Below, one piece after another: positions 15,932-21,760 of a stretch of 49,787 bases of DNA. Every line of letters begins with the position of its first letter. Positions within the stretch are counted from its first letter, which is position 1. The notes beneath the pieces are model-generated. The model saw only the letters and a list, made by a program, of their open reading frames with translations, searched no databases and was not told the DNA's origin. A program made the position numbers and the translations under genes. This DNA is from Gammaproteobacteria bacterium (GTDB lineage Bacteria > Pseudomonadota > Gammaproteobacteria > Pseudomonadales > Halieaceae), in contig JAUIEP010000016.1 in the NCBI GenBank assembly GCA_030428835.1, positions 1-49,787 on the forward strand, read 5' to 3'.

Positions 15932-16042
15932 GCGGGGCACAGAGCATAGCCACATCACCACAGCGGGTCAAAGCCGCCCGGCATACGCATGGCGCGTGTT
16001 AAGGTAGGGTCGCACTGTGGCCCGGGCGCCAGGAGAGTTGGA

Positions 16043-16381
16043 TTGAGTACAGCGACGGATATCGCAGCGGTCCTGATCGATATCGAGGCGCAGTTGCGCC
16101 AGCTCGGGCAGTGGGACAAGCTGCCGCCCACCGACACGGCCCTGGCCTCCAGCCAACCCTTCTGCGTCGACACGCTGACCCTGCCCCAGTGGCTGCAGTT
16201 CGTGTTCCTGCCCACCATGTACCGGCTGATGGAAGACGGCGAGCCGTTGCCCGACCGCTGCGGTATCGCGCCCATGGCGGAGGAATACTTTCGCGGCACC
16301 GGGCTCGCCAGCGCCGACCTCATAGGCGCGCTGGTTCAAGTAGATAAACTGCTTTCCGAGGGGACTCCCGGGGCCCACTGA
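16043..16381 (+). CDS. YqcC family protein
   Basis: A 112-residue protein with the YqcC-family layout: an N-terminal helix (VLIDIEAQLRQLGQWD), then SQPFCVDTLTLPQWLQFVFLPTMYRLMEDG, and a C-terminal helix LIGALVQVDKLL. E. coli yqcC neighbours truC, and its role is poorly defined. I chose the TTG at 16043 because AGGAGAG lies 5 bases upstream; an earlier in-frame ATG at 15989 has no such signal and would add residues lacking family character. It lies between a divergent tRNA and the copper-monooxygenase operon. Confidence 0.85.
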   Translation: MSTATDIAAVLIDIEAQLRQLGQWDKLPPTDTALASSQPFCVDTLTLPQWLQFVFLPTMYRLMEDGEPLPDRCGIAPMAEEYFRGTGLASADLIGALVQVDKLLSEGTPGAH

Positions 16382-16434: not shown

Positions 16435-16496
16435 GCTTGCGGCCCAATAAGACCCGGAACGCCTTTCCGGCCGATAAAATTCCCCAGGTGGTTGTC

Positions 16497-18980
16497 ATGA
16501 ACGCTCTTGCGCCCGTCAAACTCGCCGCACTGCCCCTCGTTGCCCTGCTCGCCGCCTGTGGCGGAGGTGGAGGCGGCGGTGGCAACGACGCCAATGTCGA
16601 CAACCAGCAGAACGGCTCCGCTGAAATCACCTGGCACAGCGCCACGCGGACCATCGTGGAGCGTTACTGCACCGGCTGCCACACGGACGGCAGCCCATTG
16701 GCACCGTTCCCCCTGGAGACCTACGAGCAGGTGGCCGCCAAGATGTCCGCCATCAGTTACGTGCTGGAAACCGACACCATGCCGCCGCTCGGCTTCACCG
16801 ACATCACCACGGCGGATCTCAGCCTGCTCACCCGCTGGCTGAACGACGGCGCCCCCCAGGGCGACCCATCGCAGACCCAGTACATCGCGTCCAGCTTTAC
16901 CTACCACGGCGACATCCGCCGCATCATCGAAGAGAAGTGCGTGACCTGTCACGTGGAAGGCGGCGTGGCACCGTTTACCCTCGGCAGCTACGAGGAAGTG
17001 AAGGCCGTGGCGGCGGCCGCGCTGTTCGCGGTGGAGAACGGCACCATGCCGCCCTGGCCGCCGACGCCGGGCTACTCGCGTCTGCGCGACCCGCGCCTCT
17101 TGTCCCCTGAGGACGAGTACGCACTGGTCAACTGGCTGCAGAGTGACCTGCCCGAGGGCAACGAGGCCGACTATGTGCCGCCCAAGCCAGCCGAGCCCCT
17201 CGACATCGACTTCAACCTGCAGGTGAAACTGCCGGAACCCTACACGCCGAACCTGCGTCCCGACGACCACCGCTGCTTTGCGATCGACTGGCCGCTGGAC
17301 GAGTTCGCCTATGTCACCGCGGTGGACGTCATCCCCGACCAGGTCGCCGAGGTGCACCACGTTATCGTCAATATCATCGAGCCCAAGGACGTGCACCACT
17401 ATGTCGGCGCGGGCGGCGAGGACGGCGATCCGGGTTGGTACTGCCTCGGCTCGGGTGGCATCGAAGGCGCTCCGCTGCCGCGCCAGATCGGCGGCTGGGT
17501 GCCGGGCAATGCGCCCGGTACGGTGCCCGAGGGCACCGGCATGGGCATCGACCCGGACTCGATACTCGTGGTGCAGATGCACTACAACACGCTGGTGACC
17601 GAGCCCGTACCCGACCAGTCCACCATCCTGATAGCCACCACCGACGAGGTGGAGCGACCCGCCAGCGGCTTCCTCTACACCAACCCGCAGTTCTTGGGCG
17701 GTGGCGTCATGACGATCCCTGCCGGTGAGGCGAACGTGTGGCACGGCTTTACCGTGCCCGCGGGCGTCCTGGGCCGCCTCTTCGGTGGCCCCGCCGGGCT
17801 GCAGAACGGTGAACCGTTCGCGCTGCACAACGGCTTCATCCACATGCACAACCTCGGCACCACGGCGCGCACGACGCTGATCCGCCCCGACGGCACGGAG
17901 CAGGTGATCGTCGACATCCGCGACTGGGACTTCAACTGGCAGCAGAACTACGGGTTGAGCGAGGAAATCCGGGTCAATCCGAACGACCTGTTCAAACTCG
18001 AATGCACCTGGGACAACACGGCGTCCAACCAGACGATCGTCGACGGCGTGCAGTTACCGCCCCGAGACGTGGACTGGGGTGACGGCACGGGCGACGAGAT
18101 GTGCCTGACCAACCTGTACGTGACGAAGCTCAAGGAAGGCCACGACTACAGTTACCACCCGACGGTGCACATCGAGACGCCCACCTACCGGCAGAAATTC
18201 AAACCGGGTGCCCTGGTGCCCCTGGAATTCCTGTTCAACAACTTCGCATTGCACGAGCCGGGCGCGCACGGTGACGATGCCCACGAGCACGACGATACCC
18301 ATGGCGGCGACCATAGCGGGGTCTACGAGGGCCATTACCATGTCTACCTCGATACCGACGATGATAACGCAGAGCACCTGACGGCCTGGGACGAGAACTA
18401 CTACTTCCAGCTGCCCGAGGATATCCTGCCGGGTATTCACACCCTGCGGGTCAGCCTGCGCGGTACAGACCACCATGCGCTCGGTGTCGAGGAAACCGTG
18501 GAAATCGAGGTTGCCGACGTGGCCGCCACCGCCGCGGATGCACTCATCGACGTGAACGACTGGGCAGAACAATCCGCCGCGGACGACACCACCTTCGCGC
18601 AGTATCGTCCCGCCTCCGTCGAGTGCCCGTCCAATAGCTGGTACAACGAGGACGGTGCGCTCGAAGTCGAAACCGGCTTCTGTAACTACCTTTCCGTTGC
18701 CCAGTCGTCCAAAACCGACATTGCCGAGGGCGACACGGTGCATCTCGTGTTGTGGCACGGCAGCCTGCGGTTCGATGAGCCTGCCACGGGTCACGTGGCG
18801 ATCGCGGTGGACGGCAACATTGTCTGGGAAGAGACCGTCGCCATTCCCGCCGGCGCGGACATATTCGATGTGCGCACTACGGCGAATTTCAGCGCGCCCG
18901 CGGGCAGCAAGGTCGAGTACAAGGTGAGTAACCACGGCTACAACACCTGGACCCTGCTCAAGCTGGAGGTCGAGCGCTGA
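16497..18980 (+). CDS. Di-haem c lipoprotein with PHM/DBM-type copper monooxygenase domain
   Basis: An 827-residue exported lipoprotein (lipobox LLAAC, Cys21, followed by eight Gly). Two haem-c sites, CTGCH (58-62) and CVTCH (148-152), are each followed by an MPP that could give the axial Met. Residues about 240-545 match the copper type II, ascorbate-dependent monooxygenase fold (peptidylglycine hydroxylating / dopamine beta-monooxygenase). All six copper ligands can be placed: His287, His288 and His362 for one site; His449, His451 and Met535 (DEMC) for the other. A His/Asp-rich stretch (about 584-626) and a C-terminal beta-rich domain follow. The haems may feed electrons to copper in place of ascorbate (inference). 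ATG chosen with AGGTGG upstream. First gene of a five-gene unit. Confidence 0.85.
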   Translation: MNALAPVKLAALPLVALLAACGGGGGGGGNDANVDNQQNGSAEITWHSATRTIVERYCTGCHTDGSPLAPFPLETYEQVAAKMSAISYVLETDTMPPLGFTDITTADLSLLTRWLNDGAPQGDPSQTQYIASSFTYHGDIRRIIEEKCVTCHVEGGVAPFTLGSYEEVKAVAAAALFAVENGTMPPWPPTPGYSRLRDPRLLSPEDEYALVNWLQSDLPEGNEADYVPPKPAEPLDIDFNLQVKLPEPYTPNLRPDDHRCFAIDWPLDEFAYVTAVDVIPDQVAEVHHVIVNIIEPKDVHHYVGAGGEDGDPGWYCLGSGGIEGAPLPRQIGGWVPGNAPGTVPEGTGMGIDPDSILVVQMHYNTLVTEPVPDQSTILIATTDEVERPASGFLYTNPQFLGGGVMTIPAGEANVWHGFTVPAGVLGRLFGGPAGLQNGEPFALHNGFIHMHNLGTTARTTLIRPDGTEQVIVDIRDWDFNWQQNYGLSEEIRVNPNDLFKLECTWDNTASNQTIVDGVQLPPRDVDWGDGTGDEMCLTNLYVTKLKEGHDYSYHPTVHIETPTYRQKFKPGALVPLEFLFNNFALHEPGAHGDDAHEHDDTHGGDHSGVYEGHYHVYLDTDDDNAEHLTAWDENYYFQLPEDILPGIHTLRVSLRGTDHHALGVEETVEIEVADVAATAADALIDVNDWAEQSAADDTTFAQYRPASVECPSNSWYNEDGALEVETGFCNYLSVAQSSKTDIAEGDTVHLVLWHGSLRFDEPATGHVAIAVDGNIVWEETVAIPAGADIFDVRTTANFSAPAGSKVEYKVSNHGYNTWTLLKLEVER

Positions 18981-18985
18981 GCACG

Positions 18986-19477
18986 TTGCTGCAACGGCTG
19001 GCCTTCTGCCTGGGCCTCTGCCTGTCACTTGCCGCCAACGCGGGAGTGAAGGTGGGGGACGAGGCGCCCGCCGTGGCCCTGCCCGGTATCGGCGGGACTG
19101 TGGGCATCACCCTGGCCGACCTGCGCGGCAAGGTCGTGTACGTCGATTTCTGGGCTTCCTGGTGCGGCCCGTGCCGCGTCTCCTTCCCCCAGCTCGAGGC
19201 GATTCGCCGCGAACTGGGTCCCCTGGGCTTCGAGGTCCTGGCCATCAATGTCGACGAGGACGAAGACGACGCCAGCGAGTTCCTCTCCGAGGTGCCCGTG
19301 ACCTACCCGATCGTGCGCGACGCGGAAGGTGTGACCCCGCAGGCCTACGGCATCATGGGCATGCCCACGGGCTACCTGGTTGACCGCAGCGGTGTAGTTC
19401 GCGATATTCACCAGGGCTACAAAAAGAGCGATGGCGAGAAGCTGCGCGAAACCATAAAAGAGTTGTTGGGAGAATAA
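18986..19477 (+). CDS. TlpA-like thioredoxin-fold protein, exported
   Basis: A 163-residue periplasmic thiol-disulphide protein. It has a short signal peptide (MLQRLAFCLGLCLSLAANA), the AhpC/TlpA opening VGDEAPAVALPGIGG, and the active site WCGPC at residues 59-63 in VDFWASWCGPCR. The cis-Pro loop is GMPTGYLVDRSG, and the C-terminal helix ends KELLGE. The start is TTG at 18986, only 5 bases after the monooxygenase stop, and the DUF4266 gene begins 2 bases after its end. Likely job: reducing cysteines of the haem c motifs or of the cysteine-rich DUF4266 lipoprotein (inference from context). Confidence 0.9.
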   Translation: MLQRLAFCLGLCLSLAANAGVKVGDEAPAVALPGIGGTVGITLADLRGKVVYVDFWASWCGPCRVSFPQLEAIRRELGPLGFEVLAINVDEDEDDASEFLSEVPVTYPIVRDAEGVTPQAYGIMGMPTGYLVDRSGVVRDIHQGYKKSDGEKLRETIKELLGE

Positions 19478-19479
19478 TA

Positions 19480-19686
19480 GTGAAATACCTGACCGGCCTC
19501 GCCGTGGCCTTGCTGCTGTGCGGGTGTGAAACCGTGCAGCCGTGGGAGCGTGGCACCCTCGCGAAGGAAGAGATGCAATGGCAGTCCGACGTCATGGAAG
19601 GCCGTATGCGCGACCAGATTCACGCCAGTAAGGAGGCCTCATCCGGCGGCACGGGGGCCGCGGGCGGCGGTTGCGGGTGTAACTGA
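19480..19686 (+). CDS. DUF4266 small cysteine-rich lipoprotein
   Basis: A 68-residue lipoprotein: lipobox LCGC with lipidated Cys16, then PWERGTLAKEEMQW, SKEASSGGTG and the invariant-looking tail GGGCGCN. This matches the DUF4266 family as I remember it, including the C-terminal Gly/Cys end. GTG start at 19480. After lipid attachment only about 52 residues remain. The two C-terminal cysteines could bind metal, form a redox pair for the TlpA-like neighbour, or be modified. The segment SGGT resembles the S-G-A-T type motif at which ApbE enzymes attach FMN to Thr, and an apbE gene lies in this operon; this is only a hypothesis. It overlaps the DUF3570 gene by one base. Confidence 0.85.
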   Translation: MKYLTGLAVALLLCGCETVQPWERGTLAKEEMQWQSDVMEGRMRDQIHASKEASSGGTGAAGGGCGCN

Positions 19687-20843
19687 TGAGCGCCCGCGAC
19701 GACAACAACAAGCAGTCCACTCTCGTGGCGCTGACCTCCAGTGCACTCCTGCTGCCCGCCTACCAGGCGGCGGCCGATGCGCCGCCGGAGTACACCGAAC
19801 TCGGCGTGCGTTACAGCAAGTACGAGGAGGACGACATCGAGGGCAAGAAGTCCTTCGGTGGCGGCAGTGAGCGCTACGAGATCGATATCGCGCAGTTCCA
19901 CCTGCTCGCGCCCGTGGGCGACAATCTCTCGTTGGCGCTGGACGTGCAGTGGGAGGACATGAGCGGCGCCTCGCCCTGGTTCGTGGGTGAAAGCAGCAGC
20001 GGGCCCCGGGTCATCATGAGCGGCGCGAGTATCGAGGATACCCGCACCGAGGTCAGCGTGGCCACGCGCTACTACTATGACCGCGGCAATGCCGGCATCA
20101 GCTACACCTATTCCGATGAGGACGACTACGAGTCCGACGCCTTCTCCCTGGACGCCTCGCTCAACAGCGAGGACGGCATGACCACCTACACGGCGGCCAT
20201 CTCCTCCTCCTGGGATGATATCGAGCCCACACAGGGTTCCATACCCACCAACGCGGTGGACGAGGAAAAGGACATTCGCTCGGCCTGGATCGGCGTCACG
20301 CGCATCGTGAGCAGGCAGGCCATGGTGCGTTTCGGCCTCAGCTACACCTACCGGGACGGCTACCTGACCGACCCCTACAAGAGTCGCGACAGCCGTCCGG
20401 ACGAGCGCAAGGAATACACCTTCAGCACGGGCTACCGCCACTTCTTCGATGAGTACGATGCGGCCCTGCACCTCGATTATCGCTACTTCGACGACGACTG
20501 GGACATCGCGTCCCACGCGCTGGACGTCGCCTGGGTGCAGAACCTGCCCGAGGACGTGCAGCTCACGCCGTTCTTTCGCTACTACACACAGGACGAGGCG
20601 CGTTTCTTCAACGTGGTGACCGAGACCACCGACCGTTTCTACGCGGACGACTACCGGCTCTCGGCCTACGGCGCGCTCACCTTCGGCCTGCGCGTGCGCA
20701 AGGACATCGGCAACTGGTCGGTGAACGCCACCGGCGAACGCTACCGTTCCGACCAGAGCTGGAGCCTGTACAACGGCAACGAGGCGCCGGGCCTCGTCGA
20801 CTTCTGGCGCGTCAGCTTCGGGCTGGACTACACCTTCCGCTGA
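19686..20843 (+). CDS. DUF3570 outer-membrane beta-barrel protein
   Basis: A 385-residue protein rich in alternating aromatic/hydrophobic strands (for example FGLSYTYRDGYL and LHLDYRYFDDDWDI) and ending ...FGLDYTFR, a terminal strand typical of outer-membrane barrels. The N-terminus MSARDDNNKQSTLVALTSSALLLPAYQAAA acts as a signal region, although its charged start is long. Family knowledge: DUF3570 proteins occur beside DUF4266, TlpA-like and ApbE genes; function not established. The ATG overlaps the DUF4266 stop by one base. Many Asp/Glu residues lie in the predicted loops, which could bind cations. It may be the channel or surface platform of the system. Confidence 0.85.
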   Translation: MSARDDNNKQSTLVALTSSALLLPAYQAAADAPPEYTELGVRYSKYEEDDIEGKKSFGGGSERYEIDIAQFHLLAPVGDNLSLALDVQWEDMSGASPWFVGESSSGPRVIMSGASIEDTRTEVSVATRYYYDRGNAGISYTYSDEDDYESDAFSLDASLNSEDGMTTYTAAISSSWDDIEPTQGSIPTNAVDEEKDIRSAWIGVTRIVSRQAMVRFGLSYTYRDGYLTDPYKSRDSRPDERKEYTFSTGYRHFFDEYDAALHLDYRYFDDDWDIASHALDVAWVQNLPEDVQLTPFFRYYTQDEARFFNVVTETTDRFYADDYRLSAYGALTFGLRVRKDIGNWSVNATGERYRSDQSWSLYNGNEAPGLVDFWRVSFGLDYTFR

Positions 20844-20857
20844 GTCCGGCAGCGCCC

Positions 20858-21760
20858 GTGCAGGGTCTTGAGCACTGCTTCAAGGCGATGGGCGGCCCCT
20901 GCCGGCTGCGCCTCGAGGTCCCCGCGGACTTCGAGGCGGCGCCCGCCATCGCGGCCGCGGAAGCCGAGGTGCAACGGCTGGAGGCCAAGTACAGCCGCTA
21001 CCTGGACGACTCCCTGACCTCCGCCATCAACCGCGCCGCCGGTGCGGGAGAACCCACGCCGATCGACGCGGAAACCGCCGCGCTGCTCAATTACGCTGAC
21101 ACCGCCTGGCGCGAGAGCGACGGGCTCTTTGACCTCACCTCGGGTGTGCTGCGCAGGGCCTGGGATTTCCGCTCCGGTCGCCCGCCGCGCGCAGGCGCGG
21201 TGGAGGAGGTGCTGCCGCTTGTCGGCTGGCAGCAGGTGCAGTGGGATTCGGGCTCGGTCTACCTGCCGCTCGCGGGCATGGAGCTGGACTTTGGCGGTTG
21301 CGTCAAGGAGTACGCCGCCGACAGCGCCGCGCTGTGCCTGCGTCGTGCCGGCGTCACGGCGGCGCTGGTCGATCTCGCGGGTGACCTGGCGGCGGTGGGT
21401 GTGCCGGGGGGACAGCGGGGCTGGCCCGTCGGCATTCGGCACCCGGAGCAACCCGGCGGCGCGCTGGCGCACCTGTTACTGCCGGAAGGTGGCCTGGCGA
21501 GCAGCGGCGACTACGAACGCTGTATCGAGTTGGACGGCGTGCGCTACGGGCACATCCTGCACCCCGCCACGGGTTGGCCCGTGCGCGGCCTGGTGGCGGT
21601 GAGCGTGCTCGCGCCGCAGTGCCTGGTGGCGGGCAGCTCCGCGACCATCGCGATGCTCAAGCCCGCCGGCGAGGCGCTGCACTGGCTGAACCGGCTGGGC
21701 CTGCCCTGGATGGCGGTCGATGCCGAACTGCGCGTGCATGGCACGGTGGCGCCCGACTAG
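20858..21760 (+). CDS. ApbE-family FAD:protein FMN transferase, divergent
   Basis: A 300-residue homologue of ApbE, which takes FMN from FAD and attaches it to Thr/Ser of exported redox proteins. Family motifs are FDLTSGVLRRAWDF, LDFGGCVKEYAAD and HILHPATG. Two positions usually acidic are changed: the Asp of HILDPxTG is His, and the C-terminal A-D-x-x-A-T reads AGSSAT (258-263), so the usual metal-binding Asp is Gly. No signal peptide is visible from the GTG start at 20858, although many ApbE proteins are exported. Either the start is wrong or this form works inside the cell. The gene follows DUF3570 by 14 bases and overlaps the convergent beta-helix gene by 4. Confidence 0.88.
   Translation: MQGLEHCFKAMGGPCRLRLEVPADFEAAPAIAAAEAEVQRLEAKYSRYLDDSLTSAINRAAGAGEPTPIDAETAALLNYADTAWRESDGLFDLTSGVLRRAWDFRSGRPPRAGAVEEVLPLVGWQQVQWDSGSVYLPLAGMELDFGGCVKEYAADSAALCLRRAGVTAALVDLAGDLAAVGVPGGQRGWPVGIRHPEQPGGALAHLLLPEGGLASSGDYERCIELDGVRYGHILHPATGWPVRGLVAVSVLAPQCLVAGSSATIAMLKPAGEALHWLNRLGLPWMAVDAELRVHGTVAPD

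Follow-up and report, generated by a model that had tools for sequence, protein, structure and literature searches.

The DsbD/DUF3570 flavinylation system was described by Meheust et al. 2021 (PMC8238504), whose main text defines the flavinylation motif [S/T]GA[S/T], reports the experimental flavinylation of a DUF3570 protein by ApbE, and counts 316 such clusters without DsbD. The stretch of DNA analysed here (the window) is a contig of 49,787 nucleotides, JAUIEP010000016.1, from a gammaproteobacterium of the family Halieaceae. It contains a five-gene unit in which a gene for a copper monooxygenase of the peptidylglycine alpha-hydroxylating monooxygenase (PHM) type precedes a flavinylation module. 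Like the system in the main text of PMC8238504, the module consists of ApbE, a DUF3570 protein with two [S/T]GA[S/T] motifs, a thioredoxin-like protein, and a DUF4266 protein with a C-terminal CxC motif. Unlike that system, the operon of the window is headed by a di-haem PHM-type gene, and DsbD is absent from the cluster. Because genes 2–5 match the published set, the module itself is known, but its use is not. The words "monooxygenase", "copper" and "c-type cytochrome" do not occur in the main text of PMC8238504. The one open-licence paper found to name DUF3570 and DUF4266 assigns them no role, and in searches of open-licence papers no description was recognised of the combination of PHM with the four-gene module or of the exchange of haem proteins in front of it; the supplementary tables of PMC8238504 may list such clusters. 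The four-gene set and the PHM fold are already known.

The five co-directional open reading frames (ORFs) span positions 16497–21760, with gaps of 5, 2, −1, and 14 bases.

16497..18980, plus strand, gene 1: ATG start, 827 residues, di-haem PHM-type copper monooxygenase lipoprotein (Pfam, AlphaFold model, structure matches)
18986..19477, plus strand, gene 2: TTG start, TlpA-like thioredoxin of the Redoxin type (Pfam)
19480..19686, plus strand, gene 3: GTG start, DUF4266 lipoprotein of 68 residues (Pfam)
19686..20843, plus strand, gene 4: ATG start, DUF3570 protein, predicted 16-strand outer-membrane barrel (Pfam, AlphaFold, structure matches)
20858..21760, plus strand, gene 5: GTG start, ApbE flavin transferase (Pfam)

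The listed ORF of gene 1 starts further upstream, at an in-frame TTG at 16437. Gene 1 matches the Pfam families Cu2_monoox_C (2.7e-8) and Cytochrome_CBB3 (3e-7), and genes 2–5 match Redoxin/AhpC-TSA, DUF4266 (8.3e-21), DUF3570 (1.3e-55), and ApbE (2.5e-65). The ORF positions and Pfam matches confirm the layout and the gene identities given in a first-pass annotation of the window. That annotation called the function of the module unsettled, which is true, except that the flavinylation of a DUF3570 by ApbE was already experimental, according to the main text of PMC8238504.

Together, the five genes may specify a single electron chain in the envelope with a copper monooxygenase at its end, a reading to which we give a probability of roughly 0.4. 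ApbE would attach flavin mononucleotide (FMN) to two SGAS motifs of the outer-membrane barrel DUF3570. The periplasmic TlpA-like thioredoxin, probably re-reduced from a DsbD encoded elsewhere, would reduce the CGC dithiol at the C-terminus of DUF4266, a tethered lipoprotein, and this dithiol would then reduce the flavins of the barrel. The flavins would convert two-electron thiol chemistry into the one-electron steps needed by haem and copper. Electrons would pass via the c-type haems of gene 1 to the copper sites CuH and CuM of its PHM core, which would hydroxylate a C-H bond with O2. Ascorbate is the reductant of animal PHM-type enzymes, and the thiol-flavin-haem-copper chain would replace it. 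The PHM protein would be one of several interchangeable haem heads served by the same module in other bacteria.

Conserved linkage of the PHM-type gene and the module

The family sample comprised 100 genomes, including that of the window; genes in the GC-rich DNA were called using tblastn, anchored calls, and all-ORF scans. A gene 1 match of some kind is present in 34 of the genomes, and a close copy in 12 (at least 58% identity over the main stretch, and 53–66% for second pieces on other contigs). Among named relatives, those nearest to gene 1 come from metagenome-assembled genomes labelled Halieaceae, Haliea, Halioglobus, or Gammaproteobacteria. The module adjoins gene 1 in all 12 genomes with a close copy. 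In ten of them, the genes for TlpA, DUF4266, DUF3570, and ApbE directly follow the full PHM gene or its C-terminal part on the same contig. In the remaining two (G218 and G243), the PHM gene is interrupted by a contig end, and a short C-terminal piece is followed by the module. Full-length DUF3570 is encoded in 35 family genomes, among them all 12 with a close PHM gene (Fisher p 7.9e-7, with relatedness ignored). The five-gene order recurs in other genomes, and therefore the layout is not due to chance. The proposal of the first-pass annotation that the genes form one envelope unit is strengthened by this linkage, and the case that it had named as refuting, a monooxygenase beside the other four genes in this strain only, did not occur: the arrangement was found in 12 genomes. 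As a fixed five-gene set, the combination proved conserved but not invariable, since the PHM gene is optional and two close copies have one haem.

Two haems are present in nine of the 12 close copies and one in two (G235 and G200), and the copy from G221 does not cover that end. The one-haem copies belong to one other genus (L178 6276–8561 and L323 1612–2295) and keep the second haem domain. More distant di-haem PHMs, with 43–49% identity to gene 1, form clade II and occur in seven genomes, including one that carries the close type as well.

The thioredoxin, haem, and PHM parts also occur as single chains. Among 26 PHM relatives from the order whose match covers the PHM region, 24 match AhpC-TSA, and each has one CxxCH motif, located at residue 204–343 (0-based). 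One of the 26 lies on contig C283 of the window's own genome. Such gammaproteobacterial Redoxin-haem-PHM proteins (for example L044, from the same genome) resemble the locus in their thioredoxin-like domain, CxxCH motif, and PHM core. They differ from it in having one chain and one haem, and none of the 26 loci (3.6–13 kb each) gave a hit to DUF3570, DUF4266, or ApbE. The frequent union of a thioredoxin-like domain, a haem, and a PHM core in one protein favours a functional connection between genes 1 and 2.

Predicted redox sites of the five proteins

Signal peptides and lipoboxes were judged by eye here and throughout, except in the count of upstream CxxCH genes given below, which used a crude script test. 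The features of gene 1 are as follows.

16548..16559, plus strand: lipobox LAAC, residues 18–21, by eye, followed by a poly-Gly stretch
16668..16682, plus strand: haem 1 motif CTGCH, C58–H62, from alignment
16938..16952, plus strand: haem 2 motif CVTCH, C148–H152, from alignment
17208..18137, plus strand: PHM catalytic core, residues 238–547, from structure matches and alignment
18162..18521, plus strand: Ig/FnIII-like domain, residues 556–675
18528..18977, plus strand: jelly-roll domain like carbohydrate-binding modules (CBMs), residues 678–827

The AlphaFold model and the structure matches of gene 1 display the PHM beta fold. All six PHM copper ligands are present, H287, H288, and H362 for CuH and H449, H451, and M535 for CuM, and they are invariant across the gap-free rows of the alignment (41/41 or 42/42). 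By fold and copper ligands, gene 1 is a member of the PHM/DBM family of copper type II monooxygenases with predicted activity. Together with the two CxxCH motifs, these features agree with the earlier description of a di-haem copper monooxygenase. The residues of the haem 2 motif do not vary among the 41 gap-free rows of the 43 aligned. Those of haem 1 are present in 14 of 16 gap-free rows, and all 14 belong to the family of the window. M95 and M184 are the likely axial ligands of haems 1 and 2, respectively. Three cysteines of the PHM core (C260, C316, and C536) are nearly invariant.

In contrast to peptidylglycine alpha-hydroxylating monooxygenase and dopamine beta-hydroxylase, the gene 1 product is a lipoprotein that carries two c-haem domains and ends in a CBM-like tail. 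It also differs from PHM proper at the peptide-anchoring positions. In rat PHM, we take these to be R240, N316, and Y318, and in the alignment gene 1 has F447, L537, and N539 at these places; an arginine at the R240 place was found in none of the 42 gap-free rows. Peptide amidation, that is, hydroxylation of a C-terminal glycine, was dropped as an unlikely function because the peptide-anchoring residues are substituted. A peptide C-terminus is probably not the substrate, which may instead be a glycan or a molecule retained close to a glycan.

Parts of gene 1 recur in other arrangements. Family proteins of about 860–980 residues (L188 4117–6972, L189, L190, and L191) share its Ig-like region and CBM-like domain in a different domain order, and L188–L190 also share its N-terminal haem domain. 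The middle part of the L188 protein contains HH, HxH, and DEM motifs, by eye like a divergent PHM, and a CX4CH motif. Two further proteins of the window's genome (G000), encoded on contigs C308 (L041 4084–6618) and C176 (L042 3–1601), match the first haem and CBM-like domains of gene 1, and the PHM core is unmatched in them.

The redox motifs of the module are listed below.

19163..19174, plus strand: CGPC active site of the TlpA-like protein, read from the sequence
19672..19683, plus strand: CGCN at the C-terminus of DUF4266, from comparison of loci
19962..19973, plus strand: flavinylation motif 1, SGAS, DUF3570 residues 93–96
20019..20030, plus strand: flavinylation motif 2, SGAS, DUF3570 residues 112–115

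All four families of the module lie in one cluster. The TlpA-like protein is probably secreted, as judged from its signal peptide. The DUF4266 protein ends in a CxC motif, and a terminal CGC followed by one residue was found in 72/73 and 23/23 copies in the fetched loci (the exception is L118). The AlphaFold model of DUF3570 has a mean pLDDT of 90.6, and its structure matches are outer-membrane barrels. By our count, the predicted barrel has 16 antiparallel strands; the connections between them are short turns at one end and mostly longer loops at the other. The two SGAS motifs lie on either side of a single hairpin within one loop at the long-loop end of the model. Conserved positions among 63 aligned DUF3570 sequences are mostly at this end, and the short turns vary in sequence. 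The usual topology rule for such barrels would place the long-loop end outside the cell. The first-pass annotation had invoked a flavinylated component; both motifs for it are present in DUF3570, and its flavinylation in this organism is predicted. No signal peptide is visible on the ApbE of most full-length DUF3570 loci; one is present in several loci of a second DUF3570 type, described below as type B.

The draft genome consists of 319 contigs totalling 5.23 Mb. No DsbD is encoded among the five genes; the genome contains a single DsbD match, on contig C89, and CcmE is likewise encoded away from the five genes. It is very unlikely that the electrons flow in the reverse direction, from a surface substrate or metal oxidised by the haem protein inward through the flavins and thiols. 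A PHM core requires two electrons and O2 per turnover, and all of its copper ligands are kept here. Furthermore, a thioredoxin-like partner supplied by DsbD usually acts as an electron donor. On the other hand, a sequence cannot tell the direction of flow, and the main text of PMC8238504 states that it could in principle be reversed.

Haem proteins at the head of other modules

Of 194 genomes sampled from the order, 71 encode DUF3570. In the order's other families, 49 strong matches that start near the start of the profile were fetched (L089–L137); weaker full-length places, such as G132 C8, G178 C8, G104 C3, G090 C23, and G062 C345, were left out. L093 was dropped because its gene calls contain no DUF3570 (48 remained), and L104 and L105, which exceed 500 residues, were excluded (46 remained); in L092 and L100, the first DUF3570 alone was counted. 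In L104, L105, and L298, DUF3570 lies inside open frames of 912–955 residues. The search for heads extended to the fifth listed upstream gene in the same orientation, and DsbD was accepted at any place in the stretch. An upstream haem gene is present in 15 of the 46 loci (12 without DsbD and three with it), and ten have DsbD only. Nineteen heads, 15 from these loci, three from the family, and one from a phylum-wide sample, were compared with Pfam, and matched PSCyt3 (10), RoxA-like (4), and Cytochrome_CBB3 (13) families, with overlaps.

The type B DUF3570 is matched in its C-terminal part only. An HzsA-like di-haem protein is encoded two to four genes before TlpA in eight of nine fetched type B loci from the order and family. 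The ninth, L046, on contig C204 of the window's genome, has no HzsA-like gene visible before the contig end; it holds the second DUF3570 of this genome, together with a TlpA-like gene and a nearby ApbE gene. In the phylum-wide sample, an HzsA-like protein precedes TlpA in 8 of 30 loci, and the type B locus L313 is without one. Sixteen HzsA-like heads, chosen for two CxxCH motifs and more than 700 residues, all match HZS_alpha. Three HZS_alpha (hydrazine synthase alpha-like) matches lie on contigs C243, C166, and C202 of the window's own genome (L320–L322).

The number of flavin sites tends to vary with the head. In the order outside the family, two sites are present in 12/12 loci with a haem head only, 0/10 with DsbD only, 1/3 with both, and 9/21 with neither. 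In the PHM-less relatives G207 and G209, a mono-haem protein directly precedes TlpA, and SGPS or SAAS replaces the second SGAS. L264, from G209, is another barrel with an altered second SGAS and has no visible head. Outside the order, one flavin site was found in three of three DsbD-linked loci, and a haem head at one of three clear two-site loci (L305, but not L300 or L301; the 912-residue L298 was excluded). A strict rule that a haem head implies two flavin sites therefore fails outside the order and is kept as a tendency, in counts that ignore relatedness. Equality of haem and flavin numbers is ruled out by the one-haem PHMs of G235 and G200. In L305 (4881–7655), a single frame encodes a TlpA domain as well as a mono-haem part with Ig repeats and an anchor-like stretch of the GGGCT type, and directly precedes a two-motif DUF3570 and ApbE.

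DUF3570 is best read as an outer-membrane flavin barrel that exchanges electrons with interchangeable haem enzymes. A wider proposal, which we consider doubtful, is that it is a general outer-membrane flavin conduit. Periplasmic thiol electrons would pass through the CGC arm to two covalent FMNs at the outer mouth of the 16-strand barrel, which would pass them on to exchangeable haem enzymes at the surface: the PHM-type copper monooxygenase here, PSCyt, RoxA-like, and mono-haem proteins elsewhere, and HzsA-like proteins with type B DUF3570. Such a conduit would be a haem-free counterpart of MtrCAB, which it resembles in outline as an electron-passing outer-membrane barrel; a chain of an Mtr complex (6r2q_B) is among the structure matches of the DUF3570 barrel, with a TM score of 0.43. 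Unlike MtrCAB, the locus has no multihaem protein for the barrel, and its predicted redox groups are flavins and a dithiol. Membership among MtrCAB-type conduits was dropped because no multihaem partner is encoded by the five genes, gene 1 having two CxxCH motifs. Cellobiose dehydrogenase and lytic polysaccharide monooxygenase (LPMO) have the cofactor order flavin, haem, and copper monooxygenase, and a carbohydrate-binding domain. With a PHM head, the conduit would be a bacterial flavin-haem-copper chain similar to this pair in cofactor order and in its carbohydrate-binding-type domain. It would differ from the pair in its unrelated protein families and bacterial envelope location.

One module common to different haem heads could also be an assembly or repair system for an exported haem protein, acting on haem-attachment or disulfide cysteines, metal loading, or export, and not a catalytic electron donor. 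TlpA/ResA-like proteins are thiol-redox helpers in the assembly of cytochromes and copper sites, and the nearly invariant cysteines of the PHM core would be candidate targets. We nevertheless regard an assembly role as unlikely. It leaves unexplained both the two predicted covalent flavins at the conserved face of the barrel and the occurrence of thioredoxin, haem, and PHM in one chain. The genome encodes CcmE, and 21 of the 46 loci in the order's other families have neither a haem head nor DsbD in the stretch.

Probable gain and loss of the PHM-type gene

A tree of DUF3570 sequences, built by a quick method with SH-aLRT values as its only support, groups all 12 PHM-linked rows in a single supported subclade that also contains 11 rows without PHM; four label changes are needed, compared with 10.6 in shuffles. 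The left border of the PHM insertion point is a gene outside the system.

15989..16381, plus strand: DUF446 gene

The PHM gene of the window, G271, and G257 sits between DUF446 and TlpA, downstream of a helicase that we take to be DinG-like. In G273, DUF446 directly precedes TlpA without a PHM gene, and the same helicase lies about 4 kb upstream; five further genomes have this PHM-less order, which makes six relatives. G246 carries before TlpA a PHM stump of about 53 residues that matches the C-terminal end. Given the subclade pattern, the PHM-less DUF446-TlpA sites, and the stump, the simplest history is a single gain of the PHM gene in this DUF3570 subclade, followed by more than one loss, with the module retained.

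The same observations fit a passenger that gained its place once, is co-transcribed, and works independently, with ordinary periplasmic cytochromes as its reductants and the module active in thiol or iron chemistry; clade II PHMs, which are unlinked to the module, fit it as well. Against a passenger stands the linkage kept in all 12 close copies, including those in other genera and that of G158, in which the flanking genes differ. Moreover, unrelated haem proteins occupy the upstream position elsewhere: a CxxCH motif is encoded in 25 of 95 genes upstream of the module and in 16 of 362 background genes. This count, with PHM loci included, considered two genes upstream with gaps of up to 400 bases, so that L119 and the type B loci were missed, and contains one false positive, a methyltransferase with CxxCH (L259). 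It seems improbable to us that the PHM gene is such a passenger.

Several observations weigh against a single electron chain ending in the monooxygenase. No PHM gene adjoins 21 fetched family loci with full-length DUF3570 (three of the 35 genomes, G283, G254, and G233, were not among the fetched loci), and the PHM gene seems to have been repeatedly lost. Therefore, neither the PHM gene nor the module strictly needs the other, and the module, which also exists alone, has the PHM gene as an optional head. The neighbourhood survey proposed by the first-pass annotation, for a PHM gene upstream of the module, was positive for the close copies but not beyond them: clade II PHMs are beside the module in none of six testable loci (the seventh is cut by a contig end), and neither DUF3570 nor DUF4266 was found in 46 PHM loci outside the family (L202–L247; 3–17 kb each, some on cut contigs), one of which, L241, has an ApbE gene. 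The absence of DUF3570 and DUF4266 from the single-chain loci and the 21 headless DUF3570 loci without DsbD point the same way. ApbE of the window begins at its catalytic domain, without a visible signal peptide. In G235 and G200, a one-haem PHM stands beside a two-motif DUF3570, and therefore haem and flavin numbers are not matched one to one.

The five-gene unit of this marine bacterium suggests a means by which such cells could power oxygen chemistry at or near their surface. If the module feeds haem enzymes, DUF3570 and DUF4266 gain a role, and there is a hint of what could replace ascorbate for bacterial PHM-type enzymes. The natural comparison of loci with and without PHM at one chromosomal site, together with the exchange of heads, makes the idea of electron supply testable. 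In several relatives, genes of 731–753 residues precede DUF446 and the module (L257, L258, L261, and L262); those of L258 and L262 resemble molybdopterin oxidoreductases by eye.

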